Part shown: positions 1 to 23,172 of the stretch, in pieces
Layout of the letters: each line of letters begins with the position of its first letter
How positions within the stretch are numbered: the first letter of the stretch is position 1
Source of the DNA: Aurantiochytrium sp. KH105
Taxonomy: Eukaryota > Sar > Bigyra > Thraustochytrida > Thraustochytriidae
Reading direction: 5' to 3'
NCBI GenBank assembly: GCA_003116975.1
Contig: BGKB01000117.1
Span: forward strand, 188,231-211,535
Length of the DNA: 23,305 nucleotides
The notes under the pieces: generated by a model
Seen by the model: the letters and a program-made list of their open reading frames with translations, nothing else
Database searches by the model: none
Told to the model about the DNA's origin: nothing
Translations under genes and position numbers: made by a program

Positions 1-1160
1 GGGTGTCGCGGGGGAGTTAGTCCTCGTCGCTCTTTGTCGTCGATCCGTCGTCATCATGACTTACGAGAGCGTCTGCAGCGACTTGCTCTGCGCCACCGCG
101 TCGGCCAGCGCCTTGGCCCCCTCGTCGCCGATGCGGTTGCCCCAAAGACTGCTCATCCGAGTGCGTGCAAGGGCCAGGGCAAGCATGCAGACGCCAGAGA
201 CGGCCATACCGTGGGCGATGTGGTGTCGCGGGGGCGTTAGTCCTCGTCGCTCGTTGCCGTCGATCAGTCGTCATCATGACTTACTCCAGCGTCTGCAGCG
301 ACTTGCTCTGCGCCACCGCGTCGGCCAGCGCCTTGGCGCCCTCTGAGCCGATGCTGTTTTTCCAAAGACTGCTCATTCGAGTGCGTGTGAGGGCCAGGGC
401 AAAGCAGGCAGAGGCCAGAGACGGCCATACCGTGGACGATGTGGTGTCGCGGGGGAGTTAGTCCTCGTCGCTCTTTGCCGTTGATCCGTGGTCATTATGA
501 CTTACTCCAGCGTCTGCAGCGACTTGCTCTGCGCCACCGCGTCGGCCAACGCCTTGGCGCCCTCGACGCCGATGCTGTTCTTCCGAAGCCTGCTCATTCG
601 AGTGCGTGTGAGGGCCAGGGCAAGCATGCGGAGGCCAGAGACGGCCATACCGTGGGCGATGTGGTTTCGCGGGGGGGTTAGTCCTCGTCGCTCGTTGCCG
701 TCGATCAGTCGTCATCATGACTTACGACAGCGTCTGCAGCGACTTGCTCTGCGCCACCGCGTCGGCCAGCGCCTTGGCGCCCTCGGAGCCGATGTTGTTG
801 CCCGCAAGCCTGCTCATTCAAGTGCGTGTGAGGGCCAGGGCAAGCATGCAGAGGCCGGAGACGGCCATGCCGTGGGCGATATGGTGTCGCGGGGGAGTTA
901 GTCTTCGTCGCTCTTTGCCAGCGATCCGTCGTCATCATGACTTACTTCAGCGTCTGCAGCGACTTGCTCTGCGCCACCGCGTCGGCCAGCGCCTTGACGC
1001 CCTCTGAGCCGATGCCGTTGTAAGAAAGACTGCTCATTCGAGTGCGTGTGAGGGTCAGGGTAAGGATGCAGAGGCCAGAGACGGCCATGCCGAGGGCGAT
1101 GTGGTGTCGCCAGGGAGTTAGTCCTCGTCTCTCTTTGACGTCGAGCTGTTATCATCATGT
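1..1160 (-). repeat. Tandem array of ~220-bp exon–intron units, one LRR each
   Basis: Five full exon copies begin (plus coordinates) at 65, 285, 506, 726 and 946, a period of 220–221 bp. The homology of the intron part continues to about 1160. Introns are about as similar between copies as exons, including a block with GTTAGTCCTCGTCGCTC and the CATGACTTAC donor region. This indicates recent duplication or ongoing gene conversion of the whole unit rather than selection on protein alone. The array is open at the left edge, so the copy number is a minimum. Confidence 0.93.
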
Positions 1161-1256
1161 CTTCATCTGCTTTCTTGGCGCTTACATTATCTCGACTTCG
1201 CCGTCGGATATGGCCTTGATTGCCTTTGCGACCACCTCGCTCTTCGTGGTGGGCAT
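1..1256 (-). CDS. Multi-exon leucine-rich repeat protein, RNase-inhibitor type (3' end off window)
   Basis: Seen: exons on the minus strand at 1186–1256, 946–1029, 726–809, 506–589, 285–368 and 65–148; the next intron runs off the left edge. The ATG at 1256 is the first Met after an in-frame TGA (1317–1319). Exon 1 is 71 nt and each later exon is exactly 84 nt; every junction splits a codon 2/1 (phase 2). Donors are GTAAGT (GTAAGC for the first), acceptors are CAG. Each 84-nt exon gives one 28-residue LRR of pattern LxxNxIGxEGxKALADAVAQ…SLQTL. Intron lengths are 136 or 137 nt (156 for the first) and would break the frame if retained. Known: this LRR class forms curved protein-binding scaffolds (RNH1, NLR C-termini). 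No NACHT, kinase, signal peptide or membrane segment is visible in the part present. Inference: a ligand- or protein-binding scaffold, probably cytosolic; function unknown. Confidence 0.85.
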
Positions 1257-2176: not shown

Positions 2177-5100
2177 TCAGAGATCACTGCAGCTGCGCGG
2201 CCCGGAAATGGACTTTTCATCAGCACTCGCGCCGCCATCGAGGTCAGAGAGGAGCGCGCATGTTTTCTTGTTGGACCCCTTGGCCGTGTAATTCAAGTGC
2301 GTGCACGTTTCGGCGTCACGGCAAGCGGTTCGACAAGCTTGCCAAGTCTTGACGTTTGCAATGTGATCAAGCACCGTTCCAATGTGAGAACGCCTGCAGT
2401 CCATCCATTCTTGCGAATTTCCTTGTGGCCCTGTCCACGAAGCAACATGCACTTCTTGCGCTTCGCAAAGTGATTAAAGTTGCCATACTCAGCGTCCGCG
2501 AAGCAAGCCTGCAGGCATGCCTCGGTGGTGTCAATCTTCGACTGGACCTTGATCTTGGTCTGCTCGGTGGGCTTGATGAAGAAACTCTCGCCAGTCGCCG
2601 CGTTGAGGCCCGCAGCGGCCAAAGGCGGTGGCATAGCTCCCCATTCCAAAGCCGTAGTCCTCACAGACGGCTGAAGCGTCACAAGCAGACTTTGCGCAGA
2701 GAGCAGAATTGGTCGAATTGAGCTTGCAAGCTGAAACACGGAGCTCGAGCTGGTCATGCCACATGATGGGGGGAATGCGAACATCAGAGCGCTCAAAGTA
2801 CGAGGTGCCAAAATTTCCGTAGGCCGGGGGCGACGAAAATTCGAGAGGACTGCTGAATGAAGTGAAAGTAGAAAAGGCCACGGCTGGTGTTGAAAAATTA
2901 AGTGTCGCCATTGCTTGCAAGCACCTCGGCAATAGAGTTTTGACGGCCGTGAATCCGTGGTCACAGTACTGGTTCCATACGGGGTTGCACTAGTAGGCCG
3001 CAACGGATTGCAAGCTGATGGTGACTCCGCTCGAGTATGGGATGGCGATGAGTACAACGTCATCTTCATCGATTTGGGCCCTCTTAAAATCAATGCTCAC
3101 TGCGCTTGCGCCTTCAAAGAGGGAGAGCCAACCAAGTCCATTGGAAGGACCAGTGATGACAGGGTTACCCTTGATGGGGAGACCGATTTGGCCGGCAGCG
3201 TCCGGATCTTGGTATCCGAGATGTACGACGGAGCCAACTCGCTGACACTCGATTTGATCTCAGTAACCACATATGGACTTGTCATCAAATTTCGCGTCAG
3301 CTGCCTCGTCATATGCAATGGTGAAGCTTGAAATGCTGCAACGATTGTCGTTGTCCTTGAAGACGTGATCGCGGAGGTACCAGATGTGCTGGGTCGTGCA
3401 GACGTCATTGGTGCGCCACCACTCGATACCCCTCGCGCGGCACCAACGATCTTGGGTCCATCGGCCTCAGAGCCGAGAACAGTCCCGTCAGCGTCAAACC
3501 AGTTGGCCAAATAGCCGCTCACAGAAAGATAGTCCAAGACCGAAGGACGAATGAGCATGGAGGTGTCGACATTTTCATCTTTGACATTGCGTGTGGCCTG
3601 GAGAAACGCGGGCGCGTAGCGGCCCGAGTGCGTGAGGAAGCGCCAGACGGGACTGCCAGATGCGGTCACCGCCATTGCGAAAGGTGATGCCGCCGATGAT
3701 ATGGCGTTGGTGCGTGTCGTACCACTTCAAGTCCATATGGTATTGCGACCACAGCTTGTTCCCGGAAGCTCGGGGGTGAAGGATTTGGAGCGACAGACTG
3801 TGCGTGCGCATGTTGTGCACAAAGTGGTAGCTCAAGATGGCTATGGCGCGTGTAACGTCGTGCGCTTCGAGTCCATCGATGGTGCTGCGCGGGCCCCAAT
3901 CGTTGAGCCCGTAGTTGGCGAGAAAGATCTTGGTGTTGGTGAAGACGAGATCGCACTCGGTGTATCGGCCCCAAGGGCTCGAATTGGTAGGGTCTGTGAG
4001 ACACATTGTGCTTCTTCCAGACACTTCGCGACCGTGTTTGTAGACGAGATCATCGGAGCTTTCGTCGACATGTTCGAGCTTGCCTCCCACGTAGATGCAG
4101 CCGCCCATGACCCACCAGATACCGGTGCCGTGACAGGTGTTATTACCGTCAAATTCGATGAAAGGGCACTCTTCAGGTGTCATGCCCGGGTCGAGTTCGT
4201 GGTCGCGATAGAACATGATGGCCTTGGGCATTTTCACGATGGCAAATCCTGCGTTTTCACTAGAAGCGGCGTTGCCAATGTACGAGTTGTACATATTGGT
4301 ATTGTAGATGCCGCTGGCCGTGGTATTGGCGGGCTGAGTGAACTTATTCGAGCTGTAAACGTTATCCATGAACGGTGCACCAGAGGTTCATAAAGTGGAC
4401 GTGACTGGCCAGGTTGTAGGAGAGTGTTCTTTTCTTCGACGCCATCTTCGCCGCTGTAAAAGCCGTGGCCGATGGCGTCATAGGCGACGTTGTCTTGAAG
4501 AAGGGTGTTTTTGGTGCTGTGGATGGCACAGCGGTAGATTGTATGATGCATACTCGAATGTTTGAGGTACGAGCGACTACCGCCTTCACCGATCAAACGC
4601 ACGTGCCACGGATAGCGCGCGAGCACGTTGGTCTGACCCATGCGATAAAGCTCGACGCCCTCGAAACGAGTCGTGGTATTCGGCCCAATGGCAATCGTGT
4701 GCCCGCCATAGCCTGTCAGCCACTTGTGCTCGCACGGGTACGTGTCGTAGCCGCTACTTTCGCAAATGTTATCGTCTGTATCGGTAGGCTTGAGGGTCTC
4801 GTCGTCTTGAATGACTATGTTGCGCGAAAGCAGACCCACCTCGCCCTGGTACTTGGGGCCGCCAAAGTGCGAGTGTGCGAGGGCCTCGGTGAGCGTGATG
4901 CGCGAGAACTCGCCTTTAACGTGCACGTTGGCAATCTCGCACACCTCGTTGCGATGCCAGTCGCGAGAGTCCTGGTTTCTGTTCCCGTAAGTACGAGGTG
5001 TTGGCCGGCGCGCTAGTTTACACGATGCTGAAAGTATATTCGAGTGTATTCTGCCGCGGCCGTGGCGGCCAAACGTGTCCAGGTCGGATGTAAAATGCTG

Positions 5101-5349
5101 TCGTGAATTTCGAGGGTGCCTCTGCCAGCCGCAGCGATGCCCTTGTACCAGACCGGGGCGGGAAGGCTGTCGGGGCGATCGCCATGCAAGGTGATGACAA
5201 TGTCGCTGTGCAGACGGCAGTTCAGAGCCGAGAGTAAACTTAACCTCGGCCTCCATGCCGGTGGTATTAAAGAAGATGTCGCTTCGTCCGCAACGATGCT
5301 TGTATGGTGATCTTGCTATAGCGGGTGATGCGCAAGTGTCAAAATTCAT
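2177..5349 (-). pseudogene. Degenerate G8 / parallel beta-helix (CEMIP/PKHD1L1-like) protein with two C-terminal PAN/Apple domains
   Basis: Seen: homologous-looking segments line up in family order but switch frame about eight times (near 5220, 4990, 4430, 4365, 3620, 3430, 2630, 2400). In-frame stops are TAG 5013–5015, TGA 3260–3262 and TAG 2990–2992. In order: a G8-like segment (5300–5020; IVITLHGDRPDSLP, TWTRLAAT), the beta-helix (4990–3600; GEVGLLSRNIVIQDDE, YRCAIHSTKNTLLQDNVAYD, IGHGFYSGEDGVE, NAASSENAGFAI, APAFLQATRNV), a C-terminal beta region (3430–2950; IEWWRTNDVC, NPVITGPSNGLGW), then Cys-rich PAN/Apple-like modules (2640–2400 and 2420–2177), ending at TGA 2177. Known: CEMIP, TMEM2 and PKHD1L1 share G8 plus beta-helix and act at the cell surface or in matrix; PAN/Apple modules bind carbohydrate or protein. 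No signal peptide is visible at the 5349 Met, so the 5' end is probably lost. None of the frame switches looks like a canonical intron. Neighbouring genes read cleanly, so decay is likelier than sequencing error, though error is not excluded. Confidence 0.75.
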
Positions 5350-5412
5350 TCGAAAAAATTACCCATGCAAGCGCTATCTCGAAAGTAGGGCTGAATTCGA
5401 GAGAGGCGAGCC

Positions 5413-13052: not shown

Positions 13053-13273
13053 AAGACCAATTGCCCAACGCTCGCAAGCGCGCACGAAGAAAGGAAAGAA
13101 GTTTTTCGAGATAAGCGAGAGCCAGCGGACGCAAAGGTCTCTCTTTCAGTAGTCAACAAAGCCCCAAGGCAAGCAAGCACCGCCGTCCATCGAGACCACC
13201 CTCGGCAAGCCCACAAAGCAAGCAAGCCCTCAAAACGCCAACGCAGCAAGAACAGCAGCACCCAAACAAGGCA

Positions 13274-15139
13274 ATGATCCTCGAGACGGCACACGCCCTC
13301 CAGCTCGCAGCAGACCAAAAGAGAGACATGGAGGCCAGAATGCAAAAGGAAAAACGGATGCTCCGCGAGCAGCAGGGCATCGTTACGCGCCGAAGGGCGC
13401 TCGCCGCCGCCGCACACTCCAACCCAATTGCAGGCGGCGACGACGTCGAGAACGCATCAAATCCCAACAACAAACGCAGCAGGCCCGCCGCCATCAAGAC
13501 TGCGAACGCCGCGCGCGGCCAGGACGCAGCAGCCCTCGCACTCTTTGATGATCTCAGCGGCATGTTCTCGCCCATGAACGCCAACTCCACCTACAGCGAG
13601 CTCTTTTCCAACGGCGAGGAAGCTGCACACCTCGACATGCACGACAAGCATCGTCACCACCACGCGCGCAACGCCAGCGGAGGCAGTCTGCCGCTCCTCG
13701 GTCTCGAGGACATCCTCGGCGCCGGCGGACTCGAGGTTTCCGCCTCCGCCTACGAAGACGACTTCGCGCCCATGAACTATGGCTTCGAGCAGCAGCAGCT
13801 TGATCAAGAGCAGCAGCAGCAGCAGCAGCAGCTCCACCACCACGACAGCCACTACGACCTCGTCCACAGCGCCGCCAGCGAAAGCCTCTTTGCCGCGCGC
13901 CAACGCAACAACAACAACGGCGCAAGAATTGTCGTCGACGCCTCTGAAAACGACGTGGACGCCGTCGCCGAGTTCGGCGATCTCTTCCTCAACGGCGCTT
14001 CTCCCTCGGCCGCCCACGCTCACGCTCACGCAAACCCGTACAGCAGCCACCACCACGGCTACACCGAGCGAACCCACAGCCACCACGATATCCCCGCTGG
14101 CGCCTCTGGCATGGAGGAGACCTACGGTGGTCTCGTCGACGACGACGACGATGATGGATTCTCTTTTATGATCCAGGACCTCGCGCAAGGCGAGCCCTCC
14201 GACACCCACTCCGCGTCGAGCGCATCCACTGCAGCGACCGCGGCCCTCTCGGCAGCCTCCGCCCCGAACCCCACCAAGAAGCGCAAGCTTCACGTGGACC
14301 CGGCCATGCCCTACAAGACCAAGCAGGCGCGCCAAAACTCTTCGTCGTCCTCGTCGACCGCCTCGTGGTCTCACCCTGCGGCGAGCAGCAGCGGATACTC
14401 GACGCCCAACCTGGCCCAGCAGAACAAGGCCCGGGCCTCCTCCAACAAGAACACACAGAACCGCCACATGTCGCCCCTCGCCACCAAACAGCAGCTGCAG
14501 CAGCAGCAAAAGCAACATGCCACCACCGTCCATGCCCCGCCTGCAGTAGCCGCAGCCGCAGCAAGACTCGGCACCAACCTTCCCTACGCGCCGGCGCCAG
14601 GCTCCTCGCGAGATCCCCTCGCCGCCCTTCGCTACGGCAGCTCCAAGGTCGCAGGCAAGCGCTGGACCGCCAAGCAGGACGAGCAGCTCCGCAAGGCCGT
14701 CAACAAGTTCAAGTCCTCGAACTGGAAGGCCATCGCCCAATGCGTTGAGGGCCGCAACCACGTCCAGTGCCTCCAGCGCTGGAAAAAGGTCCTTCAGCCC
14801 GGACTCATCAAGGGCATGTGGGCGCAAGAGGAGGACGACAAACTGCTCGAGCTCCTGGCGCAGCAGGGCAAGGAAAAATCGTGGACGAAGATCGCCGAGC
14901 ACATCCCCGGCCGCACCGCCAAGCAGTGCCGCGAGCGATGGCATCTCAACCTCGACCCCTCCATCAACCGCGGCCCCTGGACCAAGCAGGAGGACGACAT
15001 CCTCATGGGTCTTCATGCCAAGATCGGCAACAAGTGGGCAGAGATCAAGCGCAGTCTCCCCGGAAGGACTGAGAACGGCGTCAAGTCTCGCTTCAAGTCC
15101 ATCCAGCGCGCCCTCAACAAGGATACGCGCTTTGACTAA
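13274..15139 (+). CDS. R1R2R3 Myb transcription factor, single exon, 621 aa
   Basis: Seen: a single open frame with three C-terminal Myb repeats: R1 about 461–510, R2 about 511–563, R3 about 564–615. The helix-anchoring Trp residues are W464/W484/W503, W516/W537/W556 and W569/W588; the last R3 position is Phe607. A basic KKRK (335–338) is a likely nuclear localisation signal. The N-terminal 450 residues are low complexity: a charged helical stretch at 14–40, Gln run 180–187, Asp run 289–294, Ser run 356–361, and His- and Ala-rich segments. These resemble activation or disordered regions. Known: 3R-Mybs bind MYB sites (AACNG type) and often control cell-cycle genes. The Met at 13274 opens the frame; a purine-rich stretch precedes it. 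The protein ends soon after R3 at TAA (15137–15139). It stands alone, with no neighbour on the same strand nearby. Target genes are not inferable here. Confidence 0.93.
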   Translation: MILETAHALQLAADQKRDMEARMQKEKRMLREQQGIVTRRRALAAAAHSNPIAGGDDVENASNPNNKRSRPAAIKTANAARGQDAAALALFDDLSGMFSPMNANSTYSELFSNGEEAAHLDMHDKHRHHHARNASGGSLPLLGLEDILGAGGLEVSASAYEDDFAPMNYGFEQQQLDQEQQQQQQQLHHHDSHYDLVHSAASESLFAARQRNNNNGARIVVDASENDVDAVAEFGDLFLNGASPSAAHAHAHANPYSSHHHGYTERTHSHHDIPAGASGMEETYGGLVDDDDDDGFSFMIQDLAQGEPSDTHSASSASTAATAALSAASAPNPTKKRKLHVDPAMPYKTKQARQNSSSSSSTASWSHPAASSSGYSTPNLAQQNKARASSNKNTQNRHMSPLATKQQLQQQQKQHATTVHAPPAVAAAAARLGTNLPYAPAPGSSRDPLAALRYGSSKVAGKRWTAKQDEQLRKAVNKFKSSNWKAIAQCVEGRNHVQCLQRWKKVLQPGLIKGMWAQEEDDKLLELLAQQGKEKSWTKIAEHIPGRTAKQCRERWHLNLDPSINRGPWTKQEDDILMGLHAKIGNKWAEIKRSLPGRTENGVKSRFKSIQRALNKDTRFD

Positions 15140-15842: not shown

Positions 15843-16324
15843 TTGTCGGCAATGGCGATGATGTTGTTGAAGCAAGGATATCATGTGTCTTGCAGAATCC
15901 GAGGTTAGAACTTCATGCAATACCTACAGCTAGGCCTAGGCCTACTGCATTGCGGAGACGCTCAGAGGTTCGCTCGATCGCTGAGCCGCAGGCTCGCGCT
16001 CTTCCGTGAACGCGGCGACATTGGCTCTCTCCCTTGGCCGCTGGCACCTGCGGCTCTCGCCCGAGGTGCTGGTCGCAGTCCTCTCCACACCTCGCCTGGT
16101 CCCGCCCGCGTCAGCTGCAGGTCAGGTCAGGTCCGAGAGATTTCCTCGCCGCTCCTCCCCTGCAAGCACCGCAACAGACACGCCACGCCGTCCCTTCGCT
16201 TTCCTGGCCCGCACTGCCTGCGCCTCGCCTGCGCGTCGGCCGCACCGTCGTCTTGCGCGGCGTGCACACGCTCGCGCAAACAGCTGCAGCTGCAAGCAGC
16301 CCCACGCTGGACGGATTCACATCA

Positions 16325-16426
16325 CTCCATGACGAACCTGCTGCTGCTGCTGCACTGCATGCAACCCTGGTACTCCATGACGAACCTGCTGCTGCTGCTG
16401 CACTGCATGCAACCCTGGTACTCCAT
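16325..16426. repeat. 48-bp tandem duplication containing (CTG)4
   Basis: Two identical 48-bp units (16325–16372 and 16373–16420) plus a 6-nt start of a third. Each contains CTGCTGCTGCTG and GCACTGCATGCAACC. The unit is a multiple of three, so the crossing frame stays open and reads as a duplicated 16-residue Leu-rich peptide. I do not treat this as evidence of coding. Confidence 0.9.
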
Positions 16427-16928: not shown

Positions 16929-19900
16929 ATGAGCCTGGGCGCGCAGGGCGCGTGGCACGCCGTGCACGGCGACGAGGCGGCGGCGGCGGAGATCCTGTAC
17001 GTGGGCGGAGCGCGGCTTGCGTGCGTGCATGCAGGCATGCGTGCAGGCATGCAGGGATGGAGGCAGGGAAATGTCCACGGCGCGCACACGGCGACGAAGC
17101 GCGTGGCGCGCGAGGGAGACGCGCAGAGCGAGGGCTGACGGACGCGGAGAGACGCGACGCGATGCCGTGCGCAGGGAGAAGGGAGAGCTCAGCATCGAGA
17201 GCCTCGTGGACGTGGTGGAGCGCAGCTGCACGCTGCAGGAGTTAACGTACGTTCGTTCGTTGGGGTTGGCCCATGCCGACTTCGCCGTCAGGCAGGCAGG
17301 CAGGCAGACGCGCGGACAGAATACTGACGGCGAGACGGATGGGAAACCGCGCAGACTCAATGGGCACTTGCTTGCGGACGAGGAGGCCCAGGCCCTCGGC
17401 CTCGCCCTGCAGCACAACAAGTCTCTGCGATACCTCGAGTACGTGACCTACTTGAACCCCCCCCCGCCCCGCTTCCCTCTCTGGGGGAGGGAAAGGGAAA
17501 AAAGAAGGAAAGAGAGAAAAAACTGACGAAGACGAGCAAGCGCAGCCTCCACAAGAACAATATTGGCAGTGCCGGCGTAGCGCACCTCGTAGACGGCTGC
17601 CTGCGCAACAAGTCCTTGCACACGCTCAAGTAAGTCGCCACGGTCAAGGCAAGGAATAAAATGGAGAGAGAGAGAGAAAGAAAAGAAAAGAAAAGAAAAG
17701 GAACAAAGAGAGACCCATCTCACACTGACACGCGCACTTCATTATCTCGTTCCAGTCTTGCCAGCAATGAGTTCAATCAACAGGCATGCGCGTCCATCGC
17801 TCGCATCCTCGCGCAGAGCCAATCTCTTCGCTCACTCAAGTACGTAGGGACATTAAGATGTGTGGCGGAGGGACAATTGGACAATTGGACTGACCCTTTT
17901 CGATGGCATGTCGTTGCTTATGTTTTCGTTTGGTTCTATTCTGTTTATTGAAAATCGCAGCCTCTCCAACAACTACCTGCACGACGGTATCGTTGAAGCC
18001 ATCCAAAAGACCTTGCACGAGAATGGACCTCTCGAGAACCTTGAGTACGTCGGCACATACATACTCTTCCTTTTTTTTTTTCCAAGAGTCTTGCAATCCA
18101 ACCATCAAGAATGTCCTGCGTATACTAACATTTTGCGCCGCTGCACATGTTTGTTCGCTCCACAGTCTCTCACGAAATGGTATTCAGGAAGCGGGCTTTG
18201 CTCGGTTCCTTCCCGTGCTCATGCGCAACCAATGTCTGCGCAAGCTGGAGTAAGTCCAAAAAGAATGGTCTCGGCCCAAGGAAGGGCAGCGACGAGAAAT
18301 CGAGTAGTAAAGAGGGGAACCGCAAACTCACTTTACTTTCGCCTCTCTCCCCACCCTCACGCCCAGCATCTCCACCAACAAAGTCGGCAAGGACGGCGCA
18401 CGAGCTCTGGCCATTGTGCTCCAGACCAACAAGACCTTGCACTCTCTCAAGTACGTGAACATATTGCTTTCCATGGCTCAAACATGAAAACTCACCAACT
18501 GATCATGGAAACAGCCTCGAACAGACTCGCATGGGCGCCGAGGGTCTCTTTGTCGTCGTCGCTGCCCTTCACAGCAACGACACCTTGCGCGAGCTCAACC
18601 TTTCCCACAACGAGGTCAACTTTTTTGCCATTACGGCACTTGCTGCTGCAGTCAAGCAGTCCGGCTTGCGTGTTCTCCAGTACGTTCTACCTTCAACTTC
18701 GCGACCACGTCAACGCAAGTGGCTGACCCCGTTCTCATCTTGTTCATAACCAGACTCAACCAGACCACGCTAGGACGCAAAGGAACCGAGGTCTTGGCCA
18801 CAGCTCTTACGCGCACAAGCACCTTGGAGACGCTTTCTCTTGCTTCCAACTCCATCGGGGATGTCGGCGTCCAAGCTCTCGCAAATGCGCTCCACCACAA
18901 TCGTTCTCTCCTGCGCATTGATCTTTCGAGCAACAACATTGGCGACGAAGGCGCTAAAGCCATGGGCCTCGTCCTGCAGCAACGTCGCACACTCCGTGAA
19001 CTTCGGTACGTGAAATGCTTGCTTCTCCTTTTCTGTTTCGTTTTTCGCTTTCTCGTGATCCGTGAACACTGACCAATGCTTGATGAACAAACATGCAAAC
19101 ACAGCCTTGACCATAATCGCATTGGCAACGATGGCATCAAAGCTCTAGCGCTTGGCCTCCGCGTCGCGACGACCTTGGAGTCGCTCGAGTACGTTCCTTT
19201 GTTCTTCTTTCTTCGTTGTGTTTTCTCAAACAAACTCTAACTCTCTGTTGTTCGGATATGCGCGCGCGCACAGTCTTGGTCGCAATGACTTCAATCATGA
19301 GGGAGTCTCTGCTCTGGCCGAAGTCGTCCGCCACCATCCTTCGCTTCGGGTACTCCAGTAAGTTCCAAGCGCGCACAATACAATTCCCTTTTTATTTTCT
19401 TTACTTTATTTCTGACGAGACATGAGCGATCTAACATGCGCTATACAGTCTTGACGAGAACGACCTTGGGGACAGCGGGGCCTCCACTTTGGCCTCTGCG
19501 CTGCAACGCAATCAAGTCATGAGGACGCTCAAGTACGTTTGACAAACCTTTGGTTATTCTTGCGAACACGTCATTCTAACGAACCGAATTCTGCACATAG
19601 TCTGTACTGCTGTCAGATTGGCGACAATGGTGCCCACGCCTTGGCAGTTGTGCTTCGACATCATACCTCGCTGCAGTCTCTCAACCTTGACAGCGCCAAA
19701 ATCGGCCATGCGGGACTCTTGTCCCTGGCCATGGCCCTCGAGCAGAACCGTTCACTCCGACACCTTTCGTACGTTTGTTTCATGATCAACTCTTCTAGAT
19801 GCGGGACCAATGTACTGACACGACTTGTTCGTAATTGTTTCCGTGTATCCAGGCTCCTCTTTGCCGACGTCACTCCGGCCTCGATCGACGCCCTTGCAAA

Positions 19901-20408
19901 AGCGCTCGAGGACAACGAGGTCCTCGTGGACTTGCGACTGCGATACGAATACGGCTACGTCAAATTCGACCAAACGGTGCAGAACCGTAAACTCATGGCT
20001 GCTCAAGAGCTCTTTGCCGGCGCCAACCAACTTTTGCTTGAGCTAGAGACAGCGCGCACGTTGTCTCTGCGTCATGGACTCCCGGTCATGAACCAGAAAA
20101 GGCCAGACAAGTTTGTCAGCAGGGTTCCCGACATCGTCGAGCAGGAAGAGAAAATCTACGACCTCGATCCCGTGCGCGAGGTGCAGAGACGCCTGACGCG
20201 GACCCGCGCTCAAATCGACCGTCTTGCGCAGGACATTCCCCTCTTGGGCCCCTACCTGCTGCGCCCTTGCCATCGTGCCTCGACGCGCACAGGGACGCGC
20301 GAGGCCGACATGTTTAGCTCCAGGCACATTCTCTTCAACGACAACAACACGCGCCACCACCACCAGCTGCAGCGCTCCGTCAGCGGCCGCATCATTCTCG
20401 CCCCTTGA
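16929..20408 (+). CDS. 15-exon leucine-rich repeat protein, RNase-inhibitor type, complete (678 aa by splice model)
   Basis: Seen: exons 16929–16996, 17175–17246, 17355–17438, 17546–17629, 17756–17839, 17961–18044, 18166–18249, 18367–18450, 18515–18679, 18754–19005, 19105–19188, 19274–19357, 19449–19532, 19601–19768 and 19853–20408 (TGA). All 14 introns are GT–AG and phase 2. Nine exons are exactly 84 nt (one 28-residue LRR); three are 165, 252 and 168 nt (two, three and two LRRs). About 17 LRRs span residues 47–520, pattern LxxNxIGxxGxxALAxxL…SLxxL. Exons 1–2 give a 46-residue N-terminal cap. The last exon adds a helical tail (a charged segment near PVREVQRRLTRTRAQIDRLA) and a His/Asn-rich C-terminus. 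Known: such LRR solenoids bind proteins. No NACHT, kinase, signal peptide or TM segment is seen, so a cytosolic scaffold is likely. Met 16929 is the first Met of its frame. Confidence 0.9.
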
Positions 20409-22189: not shown

Positions 22190-23172
22190 ACTGAAGAAAC
22201 TTGATGTGCCAGGTGCAATGTATGGCACGGCATACGTGCCCGAATCCATGGGCAAGTACGCCGAAGCACTCACCGAGAGGTTCTTGAAATTGAAAAGAAG
22301 AAGGTGGGCCCAGAGCACCCTTCCTCGGGGGCGACGATGTATAGCTTCGCCAGCGTGTTCATCTTTACACGACGAAGCGCTCAAGATGTACCAAGAGGTT
22401 CTTGAGATTGATAAGCAGAAGTTCGGATCACATCACTTTGACGTAGCGAACACCATGCACCGCGCATGGTCATTACGAATAAGCACTCAAGACGTACCAA
22501 GAGGTTTTTAAGATTGAAAAGAAGAAGTTTGGTTCACATTACTTTGAAGTAGCGAACACAATGCACAGTCTATGTGCATGATCCGTACGAATAAGCATTC
22601 TAAATGTACCAAGAGGTTCTTAAGATTGAAAAGAAGAAGTTTGGTTCACATTACTTTGAAGTAGCGAACACAATGCACAGTCTATGTGCATGATCCGTAC
22701 GAATAAGCACTCAAAATGTACCAAGAGATGCTCGAGAATAGGAAGAAGAAGCTGGGCCCAGAACACCCGTCCACGGCGACGATAATGGCTTGCATTGCCA
22801 GAGTGCTCGAACCCCAAGGCCATTACGACGCAGCGCTAGGTTTTCCCGCAAAGGTTCTCGGGATCAGAACAAACAAATTCGGGCCAAAGCACGATTCGGT
22901 GACTGTGACGCAGTACTGGATGCCGCTTACGTATTCGCACCTCGAGCAATCTGCGAAGGCTTTCGATCATGCTCAGGACGCGTTGAAAGTCCTTCGCCGA
23001 ACTTTTCCGTCAGATGACGCAGATCCTCGTTTTGCTTTTGCCTAGCTTGCCAAAGACCAAGCTCTGCTGGATCTGGGTGTTTTCAAGCGCGCTGAGGCTA
23101 TATTGCTGCGCTCAGACGGTCCGTTAAAATCCGGGGATCCCGACTCGGCATGGAGTCACTTTACTGGCTCGC
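22190..23172 (+). pseudogene. Decayed kinesin-light-chain-type TPR protein
   Basis: Seen: repeated TPR motifs of the KLC/NPHP3 type (EALKMYQEVLEI, KKKLGPEHP, VLEPQGHYDAALG) on the plus strand, but not in one frame. The frame changes near 22270 and 22370. Spacing between successive TyrGln(Glu) anchor points is 106–112 bp instead of the 126 bp of a 42-residue TPR. In-frame TAA codons lie at 22480, 22592 and 22704, in place of the second Glu of a Tyr-Glu-Glu motif. The longest intact part is 22716–23045 (109 residues, about two TPRs). A TAG at 23046–23048 is followed in the same frame by a plausible continuation (LAKDQALLDLGVFKRAEAIL) to about 23172. Known: these TPRs bind proteins and are abundant in many protists. 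Inference: a relic, not functional. The 5' end is unclear; TPR-like sequence starts near 22200. Confidence 0.72.
22495..22718 (+). repeat. Two near-identical 112-bp tandem units inside the TPR remnant
   Basis: Units 22495–22606 and 22607–22718 differ at only a handful of positions. 112 is not a multiple of three, so each unit shifts the frame of the next, and both carry the same TAA. A more diverged relative lies just upstream (22389–22494, 106 bp). Confidence 0.9.

Follow-up and report, generated by a model that had tools for sequence, protein, structure and literature searches.

Vertebrate NLRC3-type genes encode their leucine-rich repeats (LRRs) in 84-nt exons, and NLRC3 carries a NACHT domain. 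Brown algae, like thraustochytrids, are stramenopiles, and Zambounis and colleagues are said to have worked on brown-algal LRR-ROCO genes in 2012. In those genes each exon holds one LRR, the exons being 72 bp long, in phase 2 and subject to exon shuffling, with positive selection on concave-face sites and with splice variants (Teng et al., 2024; PMC11378527, available text). Tetrahymena has 90-bp LRR exons with an extreme phase-2 bias in tandem exon-plus-intron units; its arrays show a species-typical intron length and ectopic exchange between genes and are associated with a retrotransposon, and the youngest LRR genes are pericentromeric and subtelomeric (Xiong et al., 2019; PMC6564038, available text). 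Neither 'branch point' nor 'conserved intron' appears as a term in the main text of that study. Long AG exclusion zones in human genes are associated with alternative splicing, which is more frequent among exons with zones of at least 100 nt and was seen in every distant-branch-point exon known from experiment (Gooding et al., 2006; PMC1431707, available text).

The window analysed here, by which we mean the whole stretch of 23,305 nt from Aurantiochytrium sp. KH105, corresponds to C117:188231-211535 in an assembly of 76.0 Mb and 367 contigs. The published assembly of this strain is described as diploid in appearance, with 512 scaffolds and a total of 76.7 Mb, the table of that account giving 86.0 Mb (PMC5924542, available text). 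It is likely, in our view, that an intracellular LRR-ROC-COR-TIR (ROCO-type) protein is encoded by a gene whose 5' half lies in the window, and that the LRR cassettes of this gene have been copied with their introns and selected on their binding face, and would exchange unequally.

Like the Tetrahymena arrays, as far as the available text describes them, the focal array consists of LRR-sized phase-2 exons in tandem exon-plus-intron units; its exons, in a thraustochytrid, are 84 nt long rather than the 90 bp of the ciliate. It shares with the brown-algal genes an LRR-ROC-COR protein, one-LRR exons and phase-2 junctions, and would share exon shuffling and positive selection at concave-face sites, whereas the brown-algal exon is 72 bp and its LRR 23 residues, and the TIR domain and near-identical introns found here are not mentioned in the available text on brown algae. 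NLRC3 proteins were among the matches to the focal LRR part and share its 28-residue LRR, but they carry NACHT (PF05729 on the matched proteins) where the focal protein has ROC-COR-TIR, and near-identical introns set the present array apart. A far branch motif and an AG-free zone are features common to the human distant-branch-point exons in the available account (PMC1431707), which are scattered and single, whereas here a putative branch motif so placed and such a zone occur in nearly every cassette intron of two families. Among open-licence PMC papers, the work listed on LRR or ROCO genes of thraustochytrids, Hondaea or protists does not describe this case, nor does that on arrayed LRR exons whose introns resemble one another or have a distant branch point.

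One-LRR exon cassettes in a predicted ROCO gene

Tandem Repeats Finder detected a period of 220 with 5.3 copies, 89% matches and a score of 1818 at window 2-1163. Window 1-1256 reads, on its minus strand, as a first exon and then five phase-2 exons of exactly 84 nt (Table 1), each of which encodes one 28-residue LRR, presumably of the ribonuclease-inhibitor type, has AG and GT at its borders and continues the frame across its junctions. The GT-AG introns separating the five LRR exons are 136, 136, 137 and 136 nt long, and intron 1 is 156 nt; mean identity among the array introns was 0.91, compared with 0.60 after shuffling, and exon identity was 0.88. Repeat search and exon reading thus confirm a preliminary description of this DNA, which had noted five consecutive 84-nt LRR exons with near-identical 136-137-nt introns, here assigned to the minus strand, and the continuous frame bears out its view that all junctions are in phase 2. 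Its further proposal that units can be skipped, gained or lost with the frame intact holds for exon skipping. Intron retention, on the other hand, would not keep the frame, because the phase-2 GTAAG donor gives an in-frame TAA (17/17 junctions between units of the homologous copy on contig C54). On these data, 84-nt phase-2 exon cassettes in a row make up the predicted LRR domain. An Rfam scan of the window gave no match.

Table 1. Predicted gene features (window positions unless a contig is named)
Feature	Position	Strand	Basis
First exon, 71 nt, ATG to phase-2 donor, MPTTKSEVVAKAIKAISDGEVEIM	1186..1256	-	C54 homologous first exon joins in frame
Intron 1, 156 nt; 3' part of same family as array introns	1030..1185	-	alignment; match C117:189260-189393
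LRR exon 1, LSYNGIGSEGVKALADAVAQSKSLQTL	946..1029	-	84-nt exon reading
Array intron, 136 nt	810..945	-	intron search and alignment
LRR exon 2, LAGNNIGSEGAKALADAVAQSKSLQTL	726..809	-	84-nt exon reading
Array intron, 136 nt; query for genome-wide intron search	590..725	-	intron search
LRR exon 3, LRKNSIGVEGAKALADAVAQSKSLQTL	506..589	-	84-nt exon reading
Array intron, 137 nt	369..505	-	intron search and alignment
LRR exon 4, LWKNSIGSEGAKALADAVAQSKSLQTL	285..368	-	84-nt exon reading
Array intron, 136 nt	149..284	-	intron search and alignment
LRR exon 5, LWGNRIGDEGAKALADAVAQSKSLQTL	65..148	-	84-nt exon reading
Next array intron, 5' 64 nt only, then run of N outside window	1..64	-	gap C117:186436-188230
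Last exon, 1,016 aa, ROC-COR-TIR	C117:185805-182758	-	beyond three further units; Pfam
Second LRR gene, 84-nt phase-2 exons, 9 by pattern	17355..20408	+	two runs; not part of focal gene

Window position 1 adjoins a 1,795-bp run of N (Table 1); the window begins exactly where that run ends, and the C117 array is therefore broken by an assembly gap. Three further units lie beyond it, and the distance from exon start to exon start across the gap, 1,972 bp, corresponds to 8.95 units of 220.3 bp. The last exon contains a ROC GTPase domain (Roc PF08477, 6.7e-17, 62.3 bits, cut-off 27), followed by COR (COR-A PF16095, 37.9 bits, cut-off 35.3, residues 333-381, a partial match to profile positions 36-84 of 143 only) and a TIR domain (TIR_2 PF13676, 1.4e-13, likewise above its Pfam cut-off). 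Pfam scans of the C54 LRR part and the C117 last exon listed neither NACHT nor NB-ARC. The predicted protein has the make-up of a ROCO protein, with ROC, COR after ROC and LRRs upstream of ROC.

A gap-free homologous gene with 18 units is present at C54:209320-213331. Joining its first exon (71 nt), 18 cassettes and last exon, with the 72-nt form used for units 08 and 13, gave 1,535 codons and no internal stop, and LRR_6 matched the LRR part with 378 bits in 14 stretches. Four of its units (08, 11, 13 and 15; C54:209985-211821) have about 24 nt inserted where the exon begins; in units 11 and 15 the old and new acceptors are 24 nt apart and both in frame. A genome search with the focal array intron (590..725) returned 26 matches at E <= 0.001, itself counted, all within the C117 and C54 arrays. 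Stretches of C117 have counterparts on C54 in unchanged order, at 87-95%, the two being collinear at the places tested from 50 kb to 208 kb of C117, and we therefore rejected the possibility that C54 is a distant paralogue. A C44 piece likewise matches C116, its one collinear partner, at 96%. Since both contig pairs compared are collinear, the assembly seems to hold two genome copies. At the places compared in these two pairs, the collinear copies are 4-13% apart.

The two best protein relatives are from Hondaea fermentalgiana, and the host is, as judged from sequence, a close thraustochytrid relative of Hondaea. With Hondaea P0001 the C117 copy shares 97.4% identity and the C54 copy 96.2%; for the TIR tail of P0002 the respective values are 98.4% and 90.4%. 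Gene model P0002 contains MPTTKNEVVAKATKAISDGEVEIE, the counterpart of the focal first exon, and joins this receptor exon 1 straight to the TIR part without array and ROC-COR; the ROC-COR piece, P0001, is on a separate 2,057-bp contig. Because one copy is gapped and the P0002 model skips the array, unit numbers are unreliable. Minus-strand frames at window 2177-5358 resemble, by eye, a Hondaea 'G8 domain-containing' protein, the gene for which likewise adjoins receptor exon 1.

The second LRR gene of the window (Table 1), which has a homologous copy at C54:228167-231343 (95%), served as an old-array control. In its two runs intron identity was 0.53 and 0.59, compared with 0.53 and 0.54 after shuffling, and exon identity was 0.46 and 0.48. 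As this gene has the same exons and introns scarcely more alike than shuffled ones, one LRR per exon is an old state in this genome, and expanded arrays are marked by near-identical introns. Other features of the window include a plus-strand long frame at 13115-15139 with three Myb-like repeats at its C-terminus (by eye), a 48-bp repeat at 16324-16426 (2.1 copies, 100% matches) and a 112-bp tandem repeat at 22375-22727 (3.2 copies), TPR-like by eye, although 112 is not a multiple of 3.

A larger array family and the layout of its introns

Twenty stretches were fetched, of which four belong to the C117/C54 locus, 14 contain other arrays and two (L047 and L048) gave zero and one exon by pattern. 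Each of the 14 other arrays comprises 4-17 phase-2 LRR exons of 84 nt; mean intron identity is 0.78-0.93, compared with 0.54-0.59 after shuffling. The idea that the focal array alone has near-identical introns was rejected, since all 14, read in detail, show the same. The preliminary description had thought such an array unusual in a protist; it does not stand alone, given this larger LRR-ankyrin-kinase family (hereafter the main family) in the same genome and the arrays of Tetrahymena (PMC6564038) and brown algae (PMC11378527), as described in the available texts. A first exon of one kind is common to the 12 arrays that reach the gene start. Among the last exons scanned (L036, L044 and L045), a protein kinase match was found in all three, with ankyrin above the Pfam cut-off in L044 and L045 and below it in L036 (24.2 of 27.3 bits). 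A second array with ROC-COR-TIR was sought in L047, without any exon by pattern, and in L048 (C166), which carries a ROC-COR-TIR frame and of which a single exon passes the LRR-exon pattern. A ROC profile search of the genome gave very many matches among the best 150 of 381 candidates; besides short small-GTPase frames, these include dozens in 1,000-1,370-codon frames on many contigs, which would represent a large ROC-like expansion or a mobile family.

A 15-base donor pattern allowing at most one mismatch occurred 248 times in the genome, compared with four for the reversed control, and a whole main-family intron used as query gave at least 304 matches (40/41 candidates scored). The L036 last exon had 40 protein matches, of which 11 are Hondaea proteins P0127-P0137 and the remaining 29 align over 8-29% of the query with 25-40% identity. 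LRRs at 28-residue spacing are present in three of the 11 Hondaea proteins (P0128, P0132 and P0136), P0129 has one LRR, and seven have none by pattern. Because P0129 and P0136 start with an apparent translated array intron, these models are predictions and not proof of splicing.

At least 36 arrays were compiled among the matches listed, some resting on one or two hits; contigs with family members include C44, C8, C49, C51, C87, C122, C124, C128, C137, C151, C172 and C218. On contigs of at least 60 kb, 23 of 25 compiled arrays are within 20 kb of an end (6.5 expected), as are 13/13 on contigs of at least 200 kb, and the 5' end of the gene faces the contig end in all 23 end-near arrays. Exon hits outside this tally are near an end on C44 (about 13 kb) and C158 (about 10 kb), and distant from it on C12 (about 575 kb) and C166 (about 120 kb). 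By listed strands, six arrays on 11 shorter contigs point inward and five outward (C312, C316, C339, C340 and C350). 'Subtelomeric' should be taken here to mean close to contig ends, because repeats may break assemblies and a query of four TTAGGG units found no match. The focal gene is not end-near, its C54 copy being mid-contig.

The introns were then compared for the position of CTRAC, which we take to be a branch-point-like motif, using 21 focal introns (excluding those of four irregular units and one truncated by the gap), the main-family introns and 26 controls, which are not independent (the second LRR gene with its C54 copy contributed 14, and last introns of arrays 12). The A of CTRAC was a median of 88 nt from the acceptor in focal introns and within 60-120 nt in 21/21, with an additional CTRAC at 15-45 nt in 7/21. 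CTRAC was found in 125/133 main-family introns at a median of 97 nt (124 at 60-120 nt, none at 15-45 nt), compared with 24/26 controls at a median of 19.5 nt (19 at 15-45 nt, two at 60-120 nt). The AG-free stretch before the acceptor, measured ignoring the last 12 nt of the intron, had a median of 94 nt in focal, 101 nt in main-family and 47 nt in control introns; the corresponding values after shuffling were 24, 21 and 26 nt. CTRAC is inside this zone or at its edge in 20/21 focal and 122/125 main-family introns.

Inside the zone, AG was the rarest of 16 one-substitution target dinucleotides (main family, 21/4,823; focal, 1/536), whereas it was common as such a target upstream of CTRAC (88/2,765 and 13/459); these counts are inflated by shared ancestry, and the zone had been defined from these very introns, but the within-intron contrast does not depend on that alone. 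Purifying selection against new acceptors would be the simplest reading. The pattern indicates that the introns are constrained between CTRAC and acceptor, as spliced introns would be, and the array introns of both families are probably spliced, from a distant branch point. Since the focal and main-family introns are only weakly alike (z 3.9), the layout would be either old or selected twice. By analogy with the human exons, cassettes of both sets of arrays may be skipped.

Turnover of units and divergence of the predicted binding face

Twenty-six units from C117 and C54 were aligned, and divergence figures were obtained from the 22 regular ones. Intron pi was about 0.12 (0.122), compared with 0.116 for the whole exon and 0.117 at fourfold silent sites. 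Introns and silent exon sites are equally diverged and whole units have therefore been copied, in support of the earlier suggestion that the entire 220-bp unit, intron included, is duplicated. The accompanying remark that introns are as alike as exons is correct on average, although concave-face codons are far more diverse. In C54, the divergence between units 05 and 07 (lag 2) is 0.5%, and that across the duplicated two-unit block 08-09 / 13-14 (lag 5) is 2.5% and 3.6%; in C117, units 06 and 07 are 1.8% apart over the part of 06 outside the gap. Units 04-05 / 06-07 of C54 were rejected as a block copy, since 04 and 06 differ by 9.3% and only 05/07 are close. The alignments indicate that cassettes were copied with their introns, singly and once as a two-unit block. 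That units are being 'homogenised now', as had been proposed, fits the three young C54 pairs (0.5%, 2.5% and 3.6%), whereas a mean intron distance of 10-14% indicates that most of the array is not very recent.

Mean intron distance was 0.126 between C117 and C54, compared with 0.103 within C117 and 0.136 within C54. Comparison of the first five C117 units with C54 gave 0.118 in register and 0.107-0.136 at 13 other offsets, and the last three gave 0.116 in register and 0.086-0.136 at 15 other offsets; with no diagonal, the units of C117 and C54 lack positional correspondence. As judged from these alignments, unit order differs between the two homologous copies, which have gained, lost or relocated units since they separated. 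Whole units would turn over in DNA, because the match in position has been lost between the copies and some C54 units are only 0.5-3.6% apart. For comparison, C117 and C54 differ by 7.0% over the 600 bp 3' of the array, by 14.1% over the 600 bp 5' of it and by 7.1% (20/281) at fourfold sites of the last exon. Whether the average unit is older than the parting of the copies depends on the yardstick, 7.1% at fourfold sites or 14.1% in the 5' flank, and a flat claim that most units are older was dropped on account of the latter. Turnover may be slow, because mean unit distance (10-14%) is about the divergence of the two copies.

For the main family, 133/136 exon-to-exon introns were used, three being dropped for length or N. 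Intron pi was 0.130 and exon pi 0.216, and intron distance was 0.131 between loci compared with 0.118 within. The nearest relative of a unit was in its own array for 46/133 units (9.9 expected by chance) and in another array for 87/133. Fourfold silent pi was 0.24, compared with an intron pi of 0.143 without splice-site ends (CI of the difference, 0.005-0.203); these introns diverge at most as fast as silent sites, and perhaps more slowly. When intron distance was set against exon distance in Mantel tests, the focal array gave r 0.17 (p 0.14) for the upstream intron and r 0.06 (p 0.35) for the downstream one, and the main family gave r 0.24 and 0.30 (p 0.005 each); these results are compatible with the presence or absence of recombination inside units.

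Exon codons 2 and 3 are, on our assumption from LRR structures, the LxxN segment of the beta strand on the concave face. Seven and eight different residues occur at these codons among 22 units, and replacement divergence there was 0.58, 4.8 times intron pi (22/26 units), compared with 0.30 times intron pi at codons other than 2, 3, 5 and 8. The split codon together with codons 2 and 3 had a pi of 0.438, above intron sites (Mann-Whitney p 6e-5, as a guide only, since units are related). In the main family, replacement divergence at codons 2 and 3 was 0.66, 5.1 times intron pi. Silent divergence at the two codons was likewise raised (0.23 focal, 0.58 main family), giving pN/pS of 2.5 and 1.1 from the few silent sites of two codons, and the case for selection therefore leans on the intron yardstick. 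Residues of the predicted ligand-binding face are the fastest-changing positions.

Competing explanations and implications

In the explanation that we favour, misaligned cassettes would exchange unequally, by unequal crossing-over or gene conversion, changing repeat number and order. The introns would act as long homology stretches for this exchange, phase symmetry would hold the product in frame, and selection on the concave face would drive ligand change. Once ligand is bound, TIR and ROC-COR would signal in the manner of known immune or allorecognition receptors; an immune role is suggested by domain content together with the pattern of selection. It is also possible, though we doubt it, that diversity is made mainly in RNA, with cassettes as optional exons and the distant branch point and AG-free zone as a device for regulated skipping. 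A CTRAC at 60-120 nt in all 21 focal and 124/133 main-family introns, compared with 2/26 controls, and AG-free zones twice as long as in controls (94 and 101 nt against 47) are consistent with such a device, as is the retention of frame when a cassette is skipped; in the available texts, human exons with long zones are more often alternatively spliced (PMC1431707) and splice variants of brown-algal ROCO genes differ in LRR content (PMC11378527). A distant branch point would, however, fit constitutive splicing too, the branch motif is a putative one, 7/21 focal introns hold a near-acceptor motif as well, and DNA-level copying and concave-face divergence exist regardless. A simple past expansion, in which the arrays spread by tandem duplication and now drift without continuing exchange, is an explanation that we entertain only tentatively. 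The agreement between mean unit distance (10-14%) and copy divergence (7.1% fourfold, 14.1% in the 5' 600 bp) would be expected from it, and silent sites and introns of the focal array have diverged equally, as drift would produce. Against this, the three close C54 pairs are younger than the split of the copies, and positional correspondence between copies is lost; main-family introns are, moreover, nearly as alike between loci (0.131) as within (0.118), with 87/133 units nearest to a unit of another array.

Near-identical introns in many genes, and a main-family intron pi (0.130, or 0.143 without splice-site ends) below the fourfold silent value of 0.24, could also be due to mobile introner-like elements inserted repeatedly into LRR exons, an origin to which we give almost no credence. 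The intron-only genome search led us to reject it, as 26/26 focal-intron matches are inside the C117 and C54 LRR arrays and none in unrelated genes. The main-family intron matches listed share contigs with LRR-exon matches, one on C313 excepted, most are spaced about 240 bp apart, and insertion would have been needed at the same LRR codon every time. An assembly artefact or a dead gene is very unlikely: the C117 array does include 1,795 N, repeats are error-prone in assembly and four C54 units have an altered 5' end, but the C54 copy is gap-free with an open frame of 1,535 codons, there is constraint at codons and against AG, and 3/11 predicted Hondaea proteins of a related family, two of the 11 starting with a translated intron, show the 28-residue LRR spacing.

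A broader proposal, which we regard as speculative and improbable as it stands, is that dozens of receptor genes (at least 36 arrays over the apparent two genome copies, LRR-ROC-COR-TIR and LRR-ankyrin-kinase) are built from interchangeable cassettes and constitute a two-layer DNA and RNA repertoire generator. If this were true, the introns would be a conserved device, providing both homology for inter-locus recombination and a distant branch point for regulated RNA choice, many arrays would be near chromosome ends in one fixed orientation, and the logic of the repertoire would be comparable to that of Dscam or lamprey VLR.

The known one-LRR-one-exon arrays gain a lineage, the thraustochytrids, and a length class, 84 nt, and the array design is tied to two predicted signalling outputs, ROC-COR-TIR and ankyrin-kinase. 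The array introns offer an internal yardstick by which selection on the binding face can be gauged within one gene, and the AG-exclusion evidence provides a testable link between array introns and alternative splicing. Because thraustochytrids are cultured for oil production, RNA and long-read tests of that link and of cassette turnover are within reach.
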